Shown here: one piece after another, positions 1,446 to 40,168 of the stretch
How positions within the stretch are numbered: the first letter of the stretch is position 1
Layout: each line of letters begins with the position of its first letter
Origin: Desulfonatronum lacustre DSM 10312
GTDB lineage: Bacteria; Desulfobacterota; Desulfovibrionia; Desulfovibrionales; Desulfonatronaceae
DNA length: 64,000 nt
Direction: 5' to 3'
NCBI RefSeq assembly: GCF_000519265.1
Contig: NZ_KI912608.1
Location: 1,129,665 to 1,193,664 of the forward strand
Made by a program: the position numbers and the translations under genes
Notes under the pieces: model-generated
The model's input: only the letters and a program-made list of their open reading frames with translations
Database searches by the model: none
What the model was told of the DNA's origin: nothing

Positions 1446-4262
1446 TTATCCTCGTGATTGGTTGCGGTTTTTCAGCACGTCGAGAATCGCCCGCCGCAAG
1501 GCCTCGATGCTGAACGGTTTTTGCAAAAACGCCCCGGGACGGTCGGCGGCGAAGCGCTGCTCCGCTTCCCGTGAACTGTATCCACTGCACAGGACCACCG
1601 GGACGTCCGGCGCGATCTTGCGCAGTTTCGTGAACGCCGTGACCCCGTCCATGTTCGGCATCATCAGATCCAGGACCACGCAGCCGATCCGCTGATGGTT
1701 TTCCTGAAAAACCCGGACCGCCTCGACGCCGTCCTTGGCCGTGATCACCGCATACCCAAGATGTCTCAAGGCTTCAACCGAGAGGTCCCGGACCATTTCC
1801 TCGTCGTCCACGACCAGGATCAGTTCCGGCTCTGGATGAACGTCGCTTCCGGCTTCGGCGACCGGATTCGAGGTCAACGACGGCTCCGGAAGCGGGGAGC
1901 TCTTCACTATTGCATCGTCCACCGGAAAAAGCACGTGAAACGTGGTCCCCGAGTCCGGAGCGCTGTCCACGATGATCGCTCCGCGATGACCGCGCACGAT
2001 GCCCAGGACCGCGGAAAGGCCCAGCCCGCGTCCGGTAAACTTGGTACTGAAGAACGGATCGAACAGTTTGGACTGGACCTCCTCGCTCATCCCCACGCCC
2101 GTATCCCGAACCTCCAGGTGGACGAACCAGCCGGGCTCGGGCTTTTCCTCGAGCCGGGAACGGCCCAGAAACGCGGCGTCGCAATGCGCCAGCCGGGTGG
2201 CGAGGGTCATGGTTCCGGGATGGTCGCCAATGGCTTCCGAGGCGTTGGTGATCAGGTTCATGATCACCTGCTGGATCTGTCCGGCGTCGGCCCGGATCGG
2301 GGGCAGGGACGAGGTCAGTTCCTGAACGAAGCGAACGTTCTTGCCCAGGGCGGTTTGGAAAATATGAGCGTTGTCCCGGACCAGGTCGTTAAGCACCACG
2401 GAACGGACATCGAATCCGCCCTTCCCCGAATAGGCCAGCATCTGACGAGTCAGGTCCGCGGCTCGCCGGGCGGCTAAAAGGGCCTGTTCCACGCGCTTGC
2501 GGCTCGGTTCCGCCAAGCCGGACATGGACAGAGCCAGTTCCATGTTGCCCATCATGGCCGCGAGAAGGTTGTTGAAATCATGGGCGATACCACCGGCCAT
2601 GACTCCCAGGCTTTCCAGCTTCTGGGCATGAAGCAGCCGCCGTTCCATTTCCAGGCGCTGTTCCTGCATCCAGGCGCGTTCGGTGACGTCTTCCAGCAGG
2701 ACCACGGTTTCGCCGTTGGCCGCTCGGGAATACCGAACCCGCAGGATGCGTTCCTCGGAGACGCGAATTTCTTCCGTGCCGACACCGAGGCGAAACATGT
2801 CCAGGTGTCGTTCCAACCAGTTTTCCTGCCGTCCAGGCTGATCCAAATTCGTGGATCGTTCGCGGGGAAGCATTTTGGCCTCCTGGATCACGGACAGGCA
2901 TTCGTGAAACGAAATGCCGGTGCGCAAGGCATTTTCCAGGGCCGGGAACATCCTGGTCACGTTGCGGTTCGCGGTGACCAGGCGTCCGTGCTTGTCGAAC
3001 AGGGCAAACCCTTCCTCAATGGACTCGATACCCTGGAACAGCCGATTCTGGGTCATTTCCATGCGCCGCTGCAGGTCGTGCATCAGCTTCGCGATGCGTT
3101 CGGCCATGGTGTTGAAGGTTTCGGCCAGTCGACCGATCTCGTCGCTGGATCGCACTTCGGCCCGGGCCTGGAGATTGCCGCCCCGGATCTGGTCCGCGGC
3201 GGCGGTCAGAACCGCGAACTTGCGAGAGATGGAGCGGTGCATGAACAGGGCTGAGGTCAATCCCAAAAGCACGGCGCAGACCACGGACGAGAGCAAGAGC
3301 ATGGAGGCGTTCCAGCGGGTCTTGGCGATGCTCATCCAGGCCCGATCCACCTCCTGCCGAGCCTGGGTCATCAGCTGTTCGGAAATGGGCAACAAGGCGT
3401 TAATCCGCAGATCGAACTCCCGTGACTTCGCCTCCAAAAGCCGGTCCAACTCGAGAATCCGCTCGGCGACGTATCCGTGATAGCGCAGCATGTTCTGCAG
3501 GTCCGAACGACTGACTTCCGGCAGGTCCGGGTCGAGGAGCAAGCGGTCTTCAAAGATTTTCAACACGTTCAGAGCGGACTGCATGTCCGAACGTTGCCGG
3601 GTGGCCAGGTAGCGGTTCTGCCAGGTCTGGGCCGTACGAAACAGCAGGAGCAGATCCCAATGCCGGAGCATCTCCATCCGCTCCGCCAGCACGTCGCCCA
3701 TCACGTACAGCGTGGTCTGTCGCCCGGTGTCTTCCTTGGCCAGTTCCGAAACCAGCAACACGGCTTCGGCAAACGCCTCGGCGTAGCGTTCCGCCGCGGA
3801 AAGATAAAAGTCCAGGTACAGCACCGTGTCCCGCAAGTCCTGGCTGATGGCCGGATCGTCAAGCTTGCCGCGCAATCTGGTGGTCAGGGCGATCACGTAC
3901 TCGATCCGAAGTTGCAGCGGTTCCCCGAAGGACTTCATGGCCTGGGAAAAACCGACTTTGGGCCATTGTTGAAAAAAACCCCGCTCAAGTTGGCGGGCGT
4001 ATTGCAGTTCCCGGTCGATTTCCAGGGTCAGCTCGCGAATGTCCGTGCTGGCGATGATCACGGATTCAACATGGTTCAGAGTCGCACGCAGGGCGATGGC
4101 CCCGGTCAGGGCGGTGAGCATGATCAAGAGCAGCATGAAGGCCATGATGGCCGCGAATTTGAAGCCGATGGACGACCCGCGCCACCATTGCCGGATCAAC
4201 GATCCGACGCCGTGTTTGGACTGCGGGGAAGGAACCATGGAATCAGGGGGCATACACGGCAA
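1446..4262 (-). CDS. Membrane hybrid sensor histidine kinase (HAMP-PAS-HisKA-HATPase-REC)
   Basis: 938-residue sensor kinase. Membrane helices at about 33-57 and 319-341 bracket a helical periplasmic domain. HAMP follows at 342-395, a PAS-like domain at about 405-530, the phospho-accepting His561 in GGIAHDFNN, an N-box around 668-677 (NLITNASEAI), a G1 box DTGVGM at 720, and a receiver domain at about 813-930 with Asp865 and Lys915. The last REC relay partner is not encoded nearby. The start overlaps the upstream binding-protein gene by 20 bp; an in-frame ATG at 4238, just past that stop, is equally possible. Together with the binding lipoprotein it probably forms a ligand-sensing pair (inference from adjacency). 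Confidence 0.9.
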   Translation of the reverse strand: MPCMPPDSMVPSPQSKHGVGSLIRQWWRGSSIGFKFAAIMAFMLLLIMLTALTGAIALRATLNHVESVIIASTDIRELTLEIDRELQYARQLERGFFQQWPKVGFSQAMKSFGEPLQLRIEYVIALTTRLRGKLDDPAISQDLRDTVLYLDFYLSAAERYAEAFAEAVLLVSELAKEDTGRQTTLYVMGDVLAERMEMLRHWDLLLLFRTAQTWQNRYLATRQRSDMQSALNVLKIFEDRLLLDPDLPEVSRSDLQNMLRYHGYVAERILELDRLLEAKSREFDLRINALLPISEQLMTQARQEVDRAWMSIAKTRWNASMLLLSSVVCAVLLGLTSALFMHRSISRKFAVLTAAADQIRGGNLQARAEVRSSDEIGRLAETFNTMAERIAKLMHDLQRRMEMTQNRLFQGIESIEEGFALFDKHGRLVTANRNVTRMFPALENALRTGISFHECLSVIQEAKMLPRERSTNLDQPGRQENWLERHLDMFRLGVGTEEIRVSEERILRVRYSRAANGETVVLLEDVTERAWMQEQRLEMERRLLHAQKLESLGVMAGGIAHDFNNLLAAMMGNMELALSMSGLAEPSRKRVEQALLAARRAADLTRQMLAYSGKGGFDVRSVVLNDLVRDNAHIFQTALGKNVRFVQELTSSLPPIRADAGQIQQVIMNLITNASEAIGDHPGTMTLATRLAHCDAAFLGRSRLEEKPEPGWFVHLEVRDTGVGMSEEVQSKLFDPFFSTKFTGRGLGLSAVLGIVRGHRGAIIVDSAPDSGTTFHVLFPVDDAIVKSSPLPEPSLTSNPVAEAGSDVHPEPELILVVDDEEMVRDLSVEALRHLGYAVITAKDGVEAVRVFQENHQRIGCVVLDLMMPNMDGVTAFTKLRKIAPDVPVVLCSGYSSREAEQRFAADRPGAFLQKPFSIEALRRAILDVLKNRNQSRG

Positions 4263-5514
4263 GAGTGTTGTTCAAGGCCTGTTCGAAATCCATGGACGCT
4301 TCCAGACGGACCAGCTTGAATCGCGGGACGCCGCAGTCGCCGAAGGCGTCGCAGCTTAGCGCTCCGGTCAGGGCTGGAAAACGGCGCAGTCCATGCAGGA
4401 CGTCCCGGATCCGCTGCCGCTCGATGCGCAGAGAGCCGTCCGGCTCCGGAAAAGAGGCCTGTTCCAGGGCGTGGAGCAGGATGGACGCGGCGTCGTAGCC
4501 GTGGGCATGAAAATAGCCCACGGGCCTCGTGCCGTGAGCCTGAACGTAACCGTCCCAAAACGCGGTATAGGCCGGGCTTTGGATCTGGTCCGGGGCAATG
4601 AAGAGCATGCCCCGGCAGACGTCGCCGCAGCCCTGAATGAATGGCTGGTTGAAGATGGAGTCCGCACTGAGCAGGATTAAATTGGAAAGTTCCGGTTCAG
4701 CCCGGATGGCCTGGATCAAGTATTCGGCTTCTGGAGAAAAAATCGGCAGAAAGAGCAATTCCGGACCATATCCGGCCATAGCCTGGGCCACGGGCCGCAT
4801 ATTGCGGTCTCCCGGAGCGACGGCGCCGATGAAGACCACTTCGCCGCCCTTGGCCAGAAAGGCTTCCGCAAAGGCCTCGGTCAGGCCTGCGGCATAGGGG
4901 CTTTGATCATGAACCGCCGCGACTCTGCGCAACCCCAGAAAATCGTAGGTCAAGGAGGCCGCGGCCACCCCTTGGAACTGATCATTGGCCGCGGTCCGGA
5001 AAAAGCCCGGCTGGTGGTGCTCGCCCCGCTTGCCGTTCTGGGAAGTCAAAGACGGGGCCGTGGCAGTCCCGGAGACCAGGACCATCCCCGCTTCAGAGAG
5101 AACGCGGGCCGCGGGAACCGCCGCGCTGGAACAATGGGGCCCGTGGATCGCGACCACGTTCGGGGCCGTGGCGATTTTCTGGGCCGCCACCAATCCCCCG
5201 GCCGTGGAACACTGTTCGTCCTCGCGCACGATGGTCACGGCCCGGCCGTGCAGCCCCCCGCGTTCAGCGATGCGCATTTCCAAAGTCCGAACGAGCTCCG
5301 CGCCGACCGTCTCCAAAGGGCCGCTGAAGGTCTGCAAGCTGACGAGCTTCACCGCCTCGTCCGGCTCGACCCAGACGCAGCCCAGGGCGTCCCGGCACGC
5401 CGACCGCGGCGCGGTCTCCGGAGCGCAACTTAGGATCACCGCGACCATGGTGCCAAGCAGCAGGCCAAGGAGAAGCCGGAGCGTCCAGAAGCGCAAAATA
5501 TCCGTTGTCTTCAT
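4243..5514 (-). CDS. Periplasmic-binding lipoprotein, LivJ/Peripla_BP_6 type
   Basis: 423-residue solute-binding protein of the branched-chain amino-acid/amide receptor family. The N-terminal hydrophobic stretch ends in a lipobox ILSC at Cys30, so it is probably a lipid-anchored periplasmic protein. The mature part begins with the family-type LVSLQTFSGPL and continues with two lobes, including AVHDQSPYAAGLTEAFAEAF and ALTGALSCDAFGDC. There are no LivHMGF transporter genes beside it. Instead the next gene is a hybrid histidine kinase overlapping its end, which suggests that it presents a ligand to the kinase rather than to a permease. Its ATG overlaps the stop of a kinase remnant (TGATG). The ligand cannot be told from sequence. 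Confidence 0.87.
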   Translation of the reverse strand: MKTTDILRFWTLRLLLGLLLGTMVAVILSCAPETAPRSACRDALGCVWVEPDEAVKLVSLQTFSGPLETVGAELVRTLEMRIAERGGLHGRAVTIVREDEQCSTAGGLVAAQKIATAPNVVAIHGPHCSSAAVPAARVLSEAGMVLVSGTATAPSLTSQNGKRGEHHQPGFFRTAANDQFQGVAAASLTYDFLGLRRVAAVHDQSPYAAGLTEAFAEAFLAKGGEVVFIGAVAPGDRNMRPVAQAMAGYGPELLFLPIFSPEAEYLIQAIRAEPELSNLILLSADSIFNQPFIQGCGDVCRGMLFIAPDQIQSPAYTAFWDGYVQAHGTRPVGYFHAHGYDAASILLHALEQASFPEPDGSLRIERQRIRDVLHGLRRFPALTGALSCDAFGDCGVPRFKLVRLEASMDFEQALNNTLAVYAP

Positions 5515-27120: not shown

Positions 27121-27279
27121 GCCGCAGGCTGGTGGCAAAGTCGGCGATTATTCCGTCCAGTCGTCCACGTGCCAATTCCGCCACTTCGTCGCGACTTCTG
27201 GACATTGTCACGGATTCTTTTTAAGTACGTCACACGCATGGTTGAACTCGTTTTCAACGAACGACCACGCCACGTCTCC

Positions 27280-27447
27280 TTGCTTCAGGTCGCCGCATGG
27301 CGCCAAGAGGGAACCCGGTGCGATTCCGGGACGGTCCCGCCGCTGTAAGTCCCATTCAACCTGACTGGCTTCGCATGGCCACTGGAACCGTGTTCCGGGA
27401 AGGCCCGCCAAAGTCGGGGGGACAAGTCAGAAGACCTGCCTGAAGCG
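27280..27447 (+). promoter_or_regulatory. Cobalamin (B12) riboswitch
   Basis: Adenosylcobalamin-type riboswitch. It shows GAGGGAACCCGGTGCGATTC, GACGGTCCCGCCGCTGTAA, GCCACTGG and the closing B12 box GTCAGAAGACCTGCC. The P1 stem pairs CTTCAGGTC near 27283 with GACCTGCCTGAAG at 27433-27445. A GGGGC-loop-GCCCC hairpin at about 27493-27508 lies just before the nrdG ATG and could be the expression platform hiding the ribosome site or ending transcription. It controls nrdG-nrdD; bound cobalamin should turn the B12-independent reductase off. Confidence 0.93.
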
Positions 27448-27515
27448 CATTTGTCGCGGGACACGCGGATGTCCAGGCGGCCGTTCCCCGGGGCTTTTCA
27501 GCCCCATCGCTGACT

Positions 27516-35980: not shown

Positions 35981-36118
35981 GCTCCTCCTGAGCAACCTCG
36001 CTTCCGTGCTCCTCTCCGCAATCTTCGGTAGCGTATTGAAATTGCGAACCGTGTCATTCCGACGGCATCCGCTATATTTCGTCACCATGGAAGCGGTCAA
36101 CAATCCAGACGCCGTTTA

Positions 36119-36679
36119 GCGTTTCCACGCGCCAAGACGACGCTCCACCGCCGATCCGGATCGGCGGTGACAGCGATACGGTTTCTTGTATCGCGGAGAA
36201 ATTTGAAATATGGAGGTACAGCACGGTCAGCAGCGTAGCAGCGTCCTGCCCCGGCTCCAGTCCAGGCTGAAGAAGGAAAGGCGCTTCGGAGAAGGGAGGA
36301 TTCGGTGAAAAAAAAGATATGCCCCCTGTTCGACTTCCGGGATAGCCTTGTTCAGTGAATACCCTTGTATTTGGATTGCAATTCGGCAGGAATCGCCTTC
36401 ATCTAAAATCTCCCTTCTTCCGGACAACCTTCATTTTTGACATGATATACAGAAGAAGGTGTTGAAATGTTTTCCAAATCCATGTCGATTGTTTTACCTT
36501 GACAGTTGGTTAATTGGAAGCTGGGGTGCCCGGTGAACCGTGATCCACACGATTTCTGGAAAAATACCTGTAGCCCCCAACACCTGAATCTTGAGATTAT
36601 CCGGGAACTGGTGAATCACTTGTTGGCTGCTTTCGGCACCTGATGACAAAATGCACACTTTCATGCTACGCTTTATTGT
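36119..36679. other. Gene-free stretch with a palindrome and a possible toxin promoter
   Basis: No convincing gene. A perfect 24-bp palindrome CACCGCCGATCC-GGATCGGCGGTG lies at 36146-36169, upstream of the molybdenum enzyme gene and possibly its operator. From about 36420 the base composition shifts to AT-richer, announcing the foreign-looking island. TGACAA at 36642 and TACGCT at 36667, about 19 bp apart, could be the promoter of the toxin gene. A minus-strand 66-codon frame at 36227-36427 has no recognisable content. Confidence 0.4.
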
Positions 36680-36958
36680 ATGAAAATCTACAATTGGAAC
36701 CCTGGTAAAAATCAGGAGCTTATAGTCGGGCGGGGCGTTTCCTTTGAAGAGGCGATCTTTCATATTGAACATGGCGGCCTATTAGATGATATTGCTCATC
36801 CAAACGCCTCCGATTATCCCAATCAACGGATTTTCGTCATTTGCATTAAAGAATACGTTCACCTCGTCCCGTATGTGGAAAGCGAAGATGAAGTGTTTCT
36901 GAAAACAATCATTCCCAGCAGAAAATTTACCAAGCTGTACCTTGGAGGCGGATCATGA
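36680..36958 (+). CDS. BrnT-like type II toxin
   Basis: 92-residue protein with the BrnT/RelE-like layout: KIYNWNPGKNQELIVGRGVS, FEEAIFHIEHGGLLDD, a central FVICIKEYVHLVPYV strand pair, and the C-terminal FLKTIIPSRKFTKLYLGG seen across the family. BrnT toxins are ribonucleases that stop translation. No Shine-Dalgarno is visible. The ATGA overlap with the next gene is standard for toxin-antitoxin pairs with the toxin first. AT-richer than neighbours, suggesting acquisition. Confidence 0.8.
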   Translation: MKIYNWNPGKNQELIVGRGVSFEEAIFHIEHGGLLDDIAHPNASDYPNQRIFVICIKEYVHLVPYVESEDEVFLKTIIPSRKFTKLYLGGGS

Positions 36959-37269
36959 GCAAAGGCAAGTTATCGAAAGAAGAGAAAACTCTGCTTGATG
37001 CCGTGGAGGCTGGCGAGTTTGAATCAGTATTAACTCAAGCCCGCAAAAAGGAATTGGAGGCAATTGCCAGCAACACGTTTAAAAAAGACAAAAGAATAAA
37101 TATTCGAATCTCAAACAGGGATTTAACTGCTATCCAGTCAAGAGCATCGGAAGAGGGTATTCCGTACCAAATTTTTGTGTCGAGTATCATTCACAAGTAC
37201 ATTTCGGGCTCACTGCAAGATCTCACAGCGAACAAGCAAATGCAGCCGACGCAAAATACGCGCGGCTGA
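36955..37269 (+). CDS. CopG/BrnA-like ribbon-helix-helix antitoxin
   Basis: 104-residue antitoxin. The C-terminal half has the ribbon-helix-helix KRINIRISNRDLTAIQSRA followed by YQIFVSSIIHKYISG. The N-terminal half, GKLSKEEKTLLDAVEAGEFES, is the toxin-binding tail typical of this group. The last residues, NKQMQPTQNTRG, are not antitoxin-like; they are a read-through of an attC-like hairpin, a feature of genes carried on integron cassettes. Overlaps the toxin by 4 bp. Confidence 0.8.
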   Translation: MSKGKLSKEEKTLLDAVEAGEFESVLTQARKKELEAIASNTFKKDKRINIRISNRDLTAIQSRASEEGIPYQIFVSSIIHKYISGSLQDLTANKQMQPTQNTRG

Positions 37270-37279
37270 TTTGGGCGTT
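37231..37279 (+). other. attC-like cassette recombination hairpin
   Basis: Left arm AACAAGCAAATGCAGCCGACGC (22 bases, 37231-37252; written in two parts AACAAGCAAAT and GCAGCCGACGC), 7-nt spacer, right arm GCGCGGCTGATTTGGGCGTT. The right arm pairs with AAC...CAAAT-CAGCCG-CGC on the left, leaving single extra bases at 37242 and 37249, as the extrahelical bases of attC sites do. The outer ends are AAC and GTT. The R' core is GTTCCCC rather than GTTRRRY, so it may be a decayed site. It lies at the 3' end of the antitoxin gene, as attC does in a cassette. Confidence 0.6.
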
Positions 37280-37331
37280 CCCCGGCGCTGACTTCGTCCG
37301 CCGCGATTGGGCATTAAAAAGGAAAAACTAA

Positions 37332-38435
37332 ATGCTAATCTCTAATCACATTGAAAAAGTTCGGAATGGACTCCGTGAAGGCAGATTCACTTCAGAAGCC
37401 GCTGTATCACAGGGGATACTTTTACCAGCTTTACATGAACTAGGATGGCCAGTTTTCGATACAGCAATCGTAATTCCGGAATTTTCTGTTGAAGGACGAC
37501 GTGTTGATTATGCATTGTGCCATCCTGAAAACAGACCATCGGTGTTTATCGAGGTTAAGAAGGTAGGGTTATCCGAAGGAGCAGATCGACAACTGTTCGA
37601 ATATGCTTTCCATCTTGGCGTACCGATGGCGATTCTGACGGATGGTCAGGAGTGGAGTTTCTACCTTCCTGGTGAACAAGGCCGTTACGATGAACGTAGA
37701 GTTTATAAACTCGATCTTCTGGAACGTGAGATTTCGGAAGCAGAAAGTAGACTTGACAGATACTTAAGCTACAGAAATGTCTGTTCAGGCGCCGCATTAA
37801 AGGCTGCGCGGTCAGATTATCAGAATGTGGCACGAGTACGAATTATCGAAACCAACCTTCCCAAAGCATGGGAAGCGTTGCTTAAAGATCAAGACTCATT
37901 GTTGTTGGATCTACTTTCTGAAAAGGTTGAAGATATTTGCGGTTATAAACCGGATTTGGATATATGCAGTCAATTTCTGGAAATGCAAATTCAAAATAGC
38001 AAGCATCATGATAAATATGAACCTGAAATAAATAATCCGATAAAACAAACGAAGCCATTCACTCCAGAGACCGGCACCATTCGCGCTCGAACTGTTGATA
38101 ATTTTAATTTCGTATTTAAAGGTAAAAATTTTCCGGCTCGTTCGGCGCGAGACGTCATGACAAAGCTTTTCCAGTTATTGTCTCAGGAGGACAGTGGTTT
38201 TCTTGATAGATTTGCATCACGCAAACATGGCAAGAAGAGGCGGTATATTGCAAGGGAAAAAAGTGATCTCTACCCTGGTCGTCCTGATTTGGTAGAGCAA
38301 CATTCTGTTGAAGTTGTGGCAGGATGGTGGCTCGGAACCAATTATAGCCGACGAAATATACAGGACATAATCGAATTAGCACTTGAAGTTGCTGGGCCGC
38401 AACTTCGCAACAGGGTCAAGGCAAATGTATTGTGA
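37332..38435 (+). CDS. PD-(D/E)XK nuclease-like protein (HsdR N-terminal type) with SeqA-like C-terminus
   Basis: 367 residues. The N-terminal domain resembles the type I restriction HsdR N-terminus: VDYALCHPENRP then FIEVKKVGL give the D-(E)xK core, and GVPMAILTDGQEWSFYLPG closes it. A middle helical region follows. The C-terminal 75 residues (RKHGKKRRYIARE, GWWLGTNYSRRNIQDII) resemble the hemimethylated-DNA-binding domain of SeqA by eye. AT-rich, with weak codon match to its surroundings, and located 53 bp past the attC-like hairpin, it looks acquired. No methyltransferase or specificity subunit is nearby. Confidence 0.72.
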   Translation: MLISNHIEKVRNGLREGRFTSEAAVSQGILLPALHELGWPVFDTAIVIPEFSVEGRRVDYALCHPENRPSVFIEVKKVGLSEGADRQLFEYAFHLGVPMAILTDGQEWSFYLPGEQGRYDERRVYKLDLLEREISEAESRLDRYLSYRNVCSGAALKAARSDYQNVARVRIIETNLPKAWEALLKDQDSLLLDLLSEKVEDICGYKPDLDICSQFLEMQIQNSKHHDKYEPEINNPIKQTKPFTPETGTIRARTVDNFNFVFKGKNFPARSARDVMTKLFQLLSQEDSGFLDRFASRKHGKKRRYIAREKSDLYPGRPDLVEQHSVEVVAGWWLGTNYSRRNIQDIIELALEVAGPQLRNRVKANVL

Positions 38436-38545
38436 TCCATTTCCCAACCAATCACTAGACTTTTAACGTACCGAACATCGCGCGTTCTTGCAAGCTCGGT
38501 CCGACCTCAAGCCCCAAGCCACAAGGCACACCCCCGACACGCCAA

Positions 38546-38588
38546 AGCAAAACGGCCTCGGCACGTAACGTGCCGAGGCCGTTTTGCT
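38546..38588. terminator. Perfect long hairpin, bidirectional terminator
   Basis: A 21-bp perfect inverted repeat (AGCAAAACGGCCTCGGCACG and its complement) around a tiny loop. On the minus strand it follows nrfA by 30 bp and ends in TTTTGCT. On the plus strand it also ends in TTTTGC after the PD-(D/E)XK gene. It should stop transcription from both sides. Confidence 0.82.
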
Positions 38589-38617
38589 TATGCATTCAAT
38601 GAGCTGAAACCGCGCGT

Positions 38618-40168
38618 TTACTGAACGCGACGATTCAGATCCCAGATCAGATCCGCTTCCGGAAGCAGTGGGAGATAGCCCAGCCACTCGTGGGAATCCA
38701 GATGCTCCTGGCTTTGTTGCAGTTTGCGGCTGTGCTCCGTGATCGGCGGGACGATGTCCTTGATGTCGCCTTCCAGGTTTTGGGCGATGCCGTAATTGGT
38801 GGCCTGCATGGCATAGTCCACTGCCTGTTGGCTGTATTGGATGGAACGGGAAAGCGTTTCCAGGGCTTTAGCCGGGTTATGGAATCCGGCGCTGTTTTCC
38901 GCCGAGACCCAATCCCAAAACATTTGCCCCTTCCGAATCCGTTCGCGAGCATTGATCATCAATTGATCAAAATCAGGTCGTTTGTACCCCTGATACTCGC
39001 TGGCAAGTCGAACGGCTTCGTGAGCCTTGACCGAAATATCCTGGGCGGCAAGCAATTGACCCCAAACTTTTTGTTGACTGAAAACAACACGTTCCTTGAG
39101 ATATTCCGGAGATTTGTCCGCATGGCATTGCCCGCAGGCGCTCTTGATCATTTCCGCGGACTTGAGCGGTGAAGTCCAGCGATGGGATGAAATCTTCTTT
39201 TTTCCATCCAGCCGACGATAGTTCATGTGACAATCCGCGCAGGCCACGCCGGCCGCACCATGCGGACTATCATACCACATCTCGTATTCGGGGTGCTGGA
39301 TTTTGATCATCGGCGTGTCGGACACCGCATGGGTCCAGTCGATGAAATGCCCCTCAAAGCCTTCTCGTGTGGTCGATCCATGATCCTTGTAGTATTCATA
39401 CATATCTTCCGGATCCTTGCCCAGGTCCCAAGGAAAGATCGGCTTGGCCGCAGCGCCGAATTTCTTGTCCTGAAAATAGTACTCCACGTGACACTGGGCG
39501 CAGACCAGGGAGCGCATCTCGTTGCGCGAGGCTTCCCGCCAATCCTTGCCCTGACGCTTCAGCGCCTCATCCAGAGGAACGCTGGTAATTCGCAGGTCCA
39601 TGGTTTGCGGGTCATGGCAGGTGGCGCAGCCGATGGTGTGGTCGTCCAAGTCCAATTCTTCCCGGAACTGGTTGAATTCCATGATCCAGAAATCGTCGCC
39701 GTATTTGGGAATCCACTCCACCATCTTGGGGGTTTTGCAGTTGTAGCAGGTGGAGGGCAACCCGGCCTGTTCGCTGTAGCGGTTGATCCGGTCGATTTCC
39801 AAAACGTCGTGCAGGGCGTAGGTATGTCCGCGGGCTCGGTTGTATTCGTAACTGAAGGGGTAGCCCATCCAGAGGTTTTTCAGATATGGCTGACAGTATT
39901 TCCAGCCTTTGGGCGGATCTTCGCAAAGATGCTTTTCATGAGGGATCGAACCGGAGTACTCGGTCATCTGGCTGTCGTCGTTGTTTTCCAGGAACGTTTG
40001 GTAGTGAATGGGAAAAAACTCTTCAAACGCGCTGTTCTTGATTTCCGTGGCCGCCAGCGTGGTCGTGTAGGACGGCGTGACCGGCTCAGGCACCTCGGTA
40101 CAGCTCACCAGGGCCATGACCCCAAGGGCTATGGCCGCACAACAGACCGTGACAAGCATTCTATTCAT
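38618..40168 (-). CDS. nrfA: Cytochrome c nitrite reductase, ammonia-forming
   Basis: 516-residue pentaheme enzyme that reduces nitrite to ammonium in the periplasm. The active-site heme has the Lys-ligated CYNCK motif at 141-145; the other four are CXXCH motifs (CATCH, CAQCH, CADCH, CGQCH). The signal peptide ends in the lipobox LVSC at Cys23, so it is lipid-anchored next to NrfH, as in other Desulfovibrio-type complexes. Start and NrfH stop overlap by 8 bp. Together they draw electrons from menaquinol. Confidence 0.96.
   Translation of the reverse strand: MNRMLVTVCCAAIALGVMALVSCTEVPEPVTPSYTTTLAATEIKNSAFEEFFPIHYQTFLENNDDSQMTEYSGSIPHEKHLCEDPPKGWKYCQPYLKNLWMGYPFSYEYNRARGHTYALHDVLEIDRINRYSEQAGLPSTCYNCKTPKMVEWIPKYGDDFWIMEFNQFREELDLDDHTIGCATCHDPQTMDLRITSVPLDEALKRQGKDWREASRNEMRSLVCAQCHVEYYFQDKKFGAAAKPIFPWDLGKDPEDMYEYYKDHGSTTREGFEGHFIDWTHAVSDTPMIKIQHPEYEMWYDSPHGAAGVACADCHMNYRRLDGKKKISSHRWTSPLKSAEMIKSACGQCHADKSPEYLKERVVFSQQKVWGQLLAAQDISVKAHEAVRLASEYQGYKRPDFDQLMINARERIRKGQMFWDWVSAENSAGFHNPAKALETLSRSIQYSQQAVDYAMQATNYGIAQNLEGDIKDIVPPITEHSRKLQQSQEHLDSHEWLGYLPLLPEADLIWDLNRRVQ

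Follow-up and report, generated by a model that had tools for sequence, protein, structure and literature searches.

A BrnT-like toxin-antitoxin cassette with an attC-encoded antitoxin tail, beside the probable attI site of a decayed chromosomal integron

A toxin-antitoxin gene pair of the BrnT/BrnA type

The 64-kb stretch of DNA analysed here (the window) carries on its plus strand a toxin gene at 36680-36958 (92 aa), followed by an antitoxin gene at 36955-37269 (104 aa) that overlaps it by 4 bp. Both reading frames are intact, and the toxin-antitoxin pair that a first-pass annotation had recognised at this place is thereby borne out. The order of toxin before antitoxin is likewise that of brnTA (PMC11980606). 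The antitoxin is of the BrnA/CopG type and passes the curated cut-off of the CopG_antitoxin family (PF12441; 29.6 bits vs. 28); its C-terminus reads NKQMQPTQNTRG. The toxin matches PF04365 at E 2e-5 with 25.3 bits, which does not reach the curated Pfam cut-off of 34.5, and the protein is therefore named only a "BrnT-like" ribonuclease. All 41 aligned toxin homologues match PF04365 at E <= 0.01.

The AlphaFold model of the toxin (pLDDT 94) resembles BrnT. It superimposes on Brucella abortus BrnT (3u97) with Z 9.7 and rmsd 2.5 over 75 of 77 residues and on a Salmonella toxin (7vd7) with Z 10.2; these two structures were tied, and the other matches listed scored lower. The toxin fold, the toxin-then-antitoxin order and an antitoxin of the ribbon-helix-helix type are shared with the B. 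abortus BrnT/BrnA system, whereas the window toxin is only 11% identical to its counterpart in the structural alignment, its activity is a prediction, and the window antitoxin has a tail encoded by an attC site. By analogy with the family, the toxin would be toxic through ribonuclease action and the pair may have a DNA-holding (stabilising or addiction) role. A tblastn search with both proteins against plasmids returned distant BrnT/BrnA relatives only, for the most part from Piscirickettsia.

The attC site at the 3' end of the antitoxin gene

The last codons and the stop codon of the antitoxin gene lie within a 57-nt attC site on the plus strand (37227-37283). The features that define attC sites, which integron integrases recognise as a folded bottom strand, were taken from the literature (PMC2727003). 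The site has an R'' box ending in AAC (37227-37233), an R' box beginning with GTT (from G37277, crossover G37277^T37278), paired L'' and L' arms, an unpaired central spacer and extrahelical bases on the R''-L'' arm. When the segment 37226-37286 was folded, the bottom strand gave -17.2 kcal/mol (z -3.6), a value equalled by none of 200 shuffled sequences, and the top strand was weaker (-15.4 kcal/mol, z -2.3, two of 200 shuffles equally good). In the bottom-strand fold AAC and GTT pair together with their neighbours, followed by stems of 5 bp and 6 bp and an inner stem of 4 bp. The single unpaired bases, G37242 and A37249 in top-strand numbering, share the R''-L'' arm, in agreement with the earlier description, which placed two extra bases on one arm of the hairpin.

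Two covariance models were built, R1 from eight trimmed attC sites, applied to this genome and nine relatives, and R2 from 19 attC sites, with the attC of the window cassette and two congeneric copies left out. A scan of this kind had been proposed in the first-pass annotation, and R2 placed 37227-37283 at 39.9 bits and E 8e-8 (a rough value, as the calibration was short), the sole match at E <= 10 in the window; both models are home-made from few seeds, and the R2 seeds were found through a first model that did include the toxin-antitoxin attC sites. Hand-made attC scores had been too crude, their last version ranking the window site below its threshold, and were replaced by these models. Over 48 bp the window attC is 96% identical to a site on the Citrobacter freundii plasmid pLNU-11 (NZ_KX863568), which is likewise scored as attC by both R1 and R2; its neighbours differ, being genes for hypothetical proteins, DUF488 and DUF4326 and not a toxin-antitoxin pair.

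The antitoxin tail as attC read in frame

The antitoxin frame crosses R'', L'' and the loop and ends in L', and it is this course of the reading frame to a stop in L' that gives the protein its tail. The crossover lies 3' of the stop codon, and the antitoxin protein is therefore identical wherever the cassette sits.

With an antitoxin alignment 84,980 species genomes were scanned and the best 80 loci (genome contigs), at 55-94% identity, were examined. In 31 of these 80 an R2 attC overlaps the 3' end of the antitoxin gene, its start falling nearly always 272 nt into the gene, and the attC matches in the best 80 loci were without exception on the antitoxin strand (75/75). The AAC codon of R'' is kept at 59 of 76 antitoxin loci. 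Stem variants between species still pair (AAAT/ATTT, CATT/AATG, CGCT/AGCG, AGGC/GCCT), changes on one arm being mostly compensated on the other; in the test of stem pairing the spacing was picked per sequence for most pairs, by which its shuffle control leans in favour of pairing.

Where paralogues of the antitoxin in the same genus and order lie outside cassettes, the protein stops short of the tail and no attC adjoins the gene. Together with the overlap at 31 of the best 80 loci, this absence identifies the odd C-terminal tail, as judged from the sequences, as attC translated in frame. The first-pass annotation had read the tail in the same way and had named its conservation in antitoxins outside cassettes as the contrary case; such conservation was not seen among the genus and order paralogues. 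It is doubtful that the attC-encoded tail is also a working part of the antitoxin, in which case one stretch of DNA would be selected both as hairpin and as protein, although a working tail would account for the persistence of tail codons where the attC no longer scores.

A discrete cassette in different surroundings

Toxin gene, antitoxin gene and attC together form a gene cassette of 655 bp on the plus strand (36623-37277). A homologous unit of about 640 bp occurs in two congeners (G003, 641 bp, 91% identity; G001, 639 bp, 83%), and the flanking DNA differs on both sides. The similarity between the window, G003 and G001 ends on the 3' side exactly at the crossover GTT (37277-37279), past which G003 and G001 share nothing; on the 5' side GTTRGCTGC is common to all three, with a conserved cassette leader after it. 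The unit is thus discrete, bounded by G^TT and found in different surroundings. In G003 it stands within a run of attC-bearing genes, and in G001 a short gene pair, which we take to be of the DUF4160/DUF2442 type, begins directly after the toxin-antitoxin attC. No convincing candidate for a sigma-70 promoter was detected inside the cassette.

A search for the same pair inside cassettes, another suggestion of the first-pass annotation, located it in cassettes of other genomes, and the toxin-antitoxin cassette was found across many unrelated bacteria of water and sediment. The hosts of the best 80 loci include Spongiibacter, Pseudomaricurvus, Halomonas, Parahaliea, Nitrosomonas, Marinobacter and a Spirochaetales MAG, with Gammaproteobacteria among them.

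These observations bear on the reading of the pair as an ordinary chromosomal BrnTA operon, in which the hairpin would be a terminator or a product of chance and the tail the antitoxin's own C-terminus. BrnTA pairs are indeed common on chromosomes, and several related antitoxins retain the AAC codon though the attC no longer scores. The hairpin, however, is matched by R2 at the E-value given above, no T-run follows it and a terminator scan passes over it; edges of the cassette type recur in two other genomes, paralogues outside cassettes are tail-less, and most interspecies changes in the stem are matched by a compensating change on the opposite arm. An ordinary operon is accordingly given a negligible probability.

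Two further sequences were noticed in G003. At a separate locus (L036, 4314-4867) there is a broken antitoxin copy with a decayed tail, and near the toxin-antitoxin cassette (L034, 7729-7971) lies the N-terminal remnant of a different type of integron integrase (DVEVFKRHLEWKQSY).

An integrase remnant and an attI-like leader upstream

Immediately upstream of the cassette, a repeat at 36315-36624 is present, whole or in part, in the congeners G005 and G004 (two copies each). Its right part is an intI-attI leader on the plus strand (36403-36624) conserved in the copies L092-L095, which are 70-84% identical to the window over 200 nt as far as GTT; beyond GTT the similarity falls to 0.60-0.63, vs. 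0.58 for shuffled sequence. The five copies are thus alike before GTT (ATT in one of them) and unlike after it, as is expected of an attI, with the crossover at G36622^T36623; this attI was called from its position and the pattern of the copies and not from any known attI sequence. Downstream of the leader, attC sites in the right orientation follow in three of the four other loci (L092, L094 and L095).

On the minus strand, the leftmost part of the repeat codes for an integrase N-terminus. In G004 it reads MEAISAELQSKYKTYLLNKASRKGEQGAYLKWLRHYLDYC, and the congener copies match full-length integrases at E values of about 1e-7 to 5e-11. In the window, tblastn with the congener fragments revealed a decayed N-terminal intI fragment (36314-36402, minus strand), of which one frame (36402-36322; E about 2e-4) has MKAIPAELQSKYK.. 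and a second (36367-36314; E 1.8e-5) has ..SLNKAIPEVEQGAYL. The remnant is small, about 90 bp, frameshifted and cut at 36314. It belongs to a long integrase type (about 450-530 aa), of which one full-length relative, the single protein tested, passes TIGR02249 (397.6 vs. 265 bits), and genes of this type adjoin divergent attC arrays in five genomes, an arrangement that matches the one in the window. The earlier statement that no integrase is visible therefore stands for an intact gene and fails for the decayed fragment.

An arrangement of intI on the minus strand, attI, and cassettes on the plus strand is the standard integron geometry. This geometry and the split and cut intI argue that the locus is an inactivated integron with the toxin-antitoxin cassette directly at its attI. 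The upstream repeat might instead be the end of an insertion sequence or MITE, with the cassette beside it by chance, since copies of it are scattered through several genomes of the genus and it borders on a second dispersed repeat (36146-36314). Against this, its congener copies encode the N-terminus of an integron integrase, and a different sequence follows every copy on the same side, attC-bearing in three of four cases; a mobile-element end is therefore considered very improbable.

Two candidates in this region were rejected. An inverted repeat at 36572-36631 was considered as a second attC; the models gave it no more than 14.3 bits, and that on the opposite strand, and the copy pattern fits attI better. 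L092 was considered as a precise empty site, because TTCCCCGGCG follows GTT there as it does after the window cassette; another cassette occupies that locus, and the ten-base match may be due to chance.

Behind the attI-like leader of L092 in G005 (3299-4874) come a CYTH-like gene, which has an attC, and a gene resembling class D beta-lactamases, both named by eye. The dispersed repeat at 36146-36314, which contains the palindrome CCGCCGATCCGGATCGGCGG, has about five other copies in its own genome and about eight in G005, and one copy stands beside an integron integrase in G006.

Integrases and attC sites elsewhere in the genome

A genome-wide search with TIGR02249, which had also been recommended with the first reading together with a search for other attC sites, yielded no integron integrase above the cut-off, the only matches being of the XerC/XerD type. 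Where a complete integron has an intact intI beside attI, the window locus has the 90-bp frameshifted fragment only, and no intact cognate integrase for the window attI was found in the genus. The congeners G001, G005 and G006 carry integrases over the TIGR02249 cut-off, one of those in G005 with adjoining attC sites. Several further attC sites form a second array without integrase in the same genome, at 3.48-3.49 Mb.

This second array (L037, 4035-10373; G000:C1, about 3484.0-3490.4 kb) holds several short genes of the cassette type. A block, GGATTGACACGACCTGAAAGGTCGTTTCAATCCATTGTTCAAG, is repeated within cassette arrays, at L037 3720 and 7396 (minus strand) and in G005 at L095 4580.

The overall reading that follows is that 36623-37277 is very probably a toxin-antitoxin cassette at the attI of a chromosomal integron whose integrase has decayed, in a bacterium of Desulfovibrionales type. 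The bottom strand of attC would fold into the hairpin with its two extrahelical bases and be bound by an integron integrase, which would cut at G^TT in the R' box, joining the cassette to attI (36622^36623); the integron would afterwards have lost its integrase, leaving the frameshifted N-terminal fragment beside attI. No intact integrase is present in the genome, and the cassette would therefore be fixed unless an integrase arrives from outside. The first-pass annotation had proposed a stranded cassette, and this is upheld as regards an integron cassette with attC and G^TT edges, with the correction that it does not lie alone but at the attI of a decayed integron.

A lone cassette at a secondary site of the attG type, brought in by an integrase from elsewhere and resembling integron leaders upstream only by accident, would fit the single scoring attC and the lack of a surviving integrase gene, and there is precedent in the literature for insertion at attG (mentioned in PMC12444791). 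It leaves unexplained, however, that the upstream repeat breaks at the same place in four other loci, with attC sites following in three, and that the integrase N-terminus encoded at its left end is directed away from the cassette. Such a lone insertion is judged improbable, and the decayed integron is preferred.

Relation to known cassettes and inactivated integrons

BrnT/BrnA pairs are known as integron cassettes from a metagenome catalogue (PMC7370490), from a CALIN of Halorhodospira halochloris (PMC7923331) and from a review (PMC8876359). The window pair agrees with them in being a BrnTA cassette and differs in that it occupies a decayed attI in a genome of Desulfovibrionales type, that its toxin stays under the Pfam BrnT cut-off, and that the overlap of attC with the antitoxin reading frame is here followed over many genera. 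Chromosomal integrons that have been inactivated are known as well, as are CALINs, e.g., in Xanthomonas (PMC12444791), and the loss of intI through frameshift or deletion with cassettes left behind is common to both cases. In contrast to these, the window locus has one scorable attC and about 90 bp of intI, and its integrase belongs to the long type, which has an additional N-terminal region. A CALIN has at least two attC sites without intI (IntegronFinder 2 default; definition in PMC9024848), and a single attC was scored at the window locus with filters off, so that the locus does not qualify as one.

BrnTA cassettes and dead integrons are thus both already known, and the locus is a further example that documents the death of an integron in place in a Desulfovibrionales-type lineage. 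The most useful by-product is that one cassette, with an attC belonging to the antitoxin gene, could be traced over a long range: a single cassette family can be followed over several phyla and its attC from intact to decayed, and toxin-antitoxin pairs on chromosomes that have an odd C-terminal tail become recognisable as cassettes even after the integrase is lost.

Neighbouring DNA

Directly after the toxin-antitoxin attC follows a gene for an HSDR_N-type nuclease (37332-38435, plus strand; PF04313, 30.2 bits, cut-off 25.1), which makes 37278-38435 a possible second cassette. In a different genus (G053, L101) a homologue is preceded by two attC sites of like orientation. No attC was scored 3' of the gene in 38435-38700 with filters off, and the gene is likely a second cassette that has lost its attC. 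For the greater part of 36200-38400 the GC content is 0.40-0.47, compared with about 0.63 on the left and 0.55 on the right, consistent with the AT-rich region noted earlier.

Synteny breaks in the interval 36103-38618, which separates a molybdopterin oxidoreductase gene from nrfA; in G005 its two sides are on different contigs. Between the HSDR_N gene and nrfA (38547-38587) there is a terminator-like element, a long palindrome around CGGCCTCGGCACGTAACGTGCCGAGGCCG with TTTTGC after it. Elsewhere in the window, a Cobalamin riboswitch was detected at 27270-27457 (113 bits).
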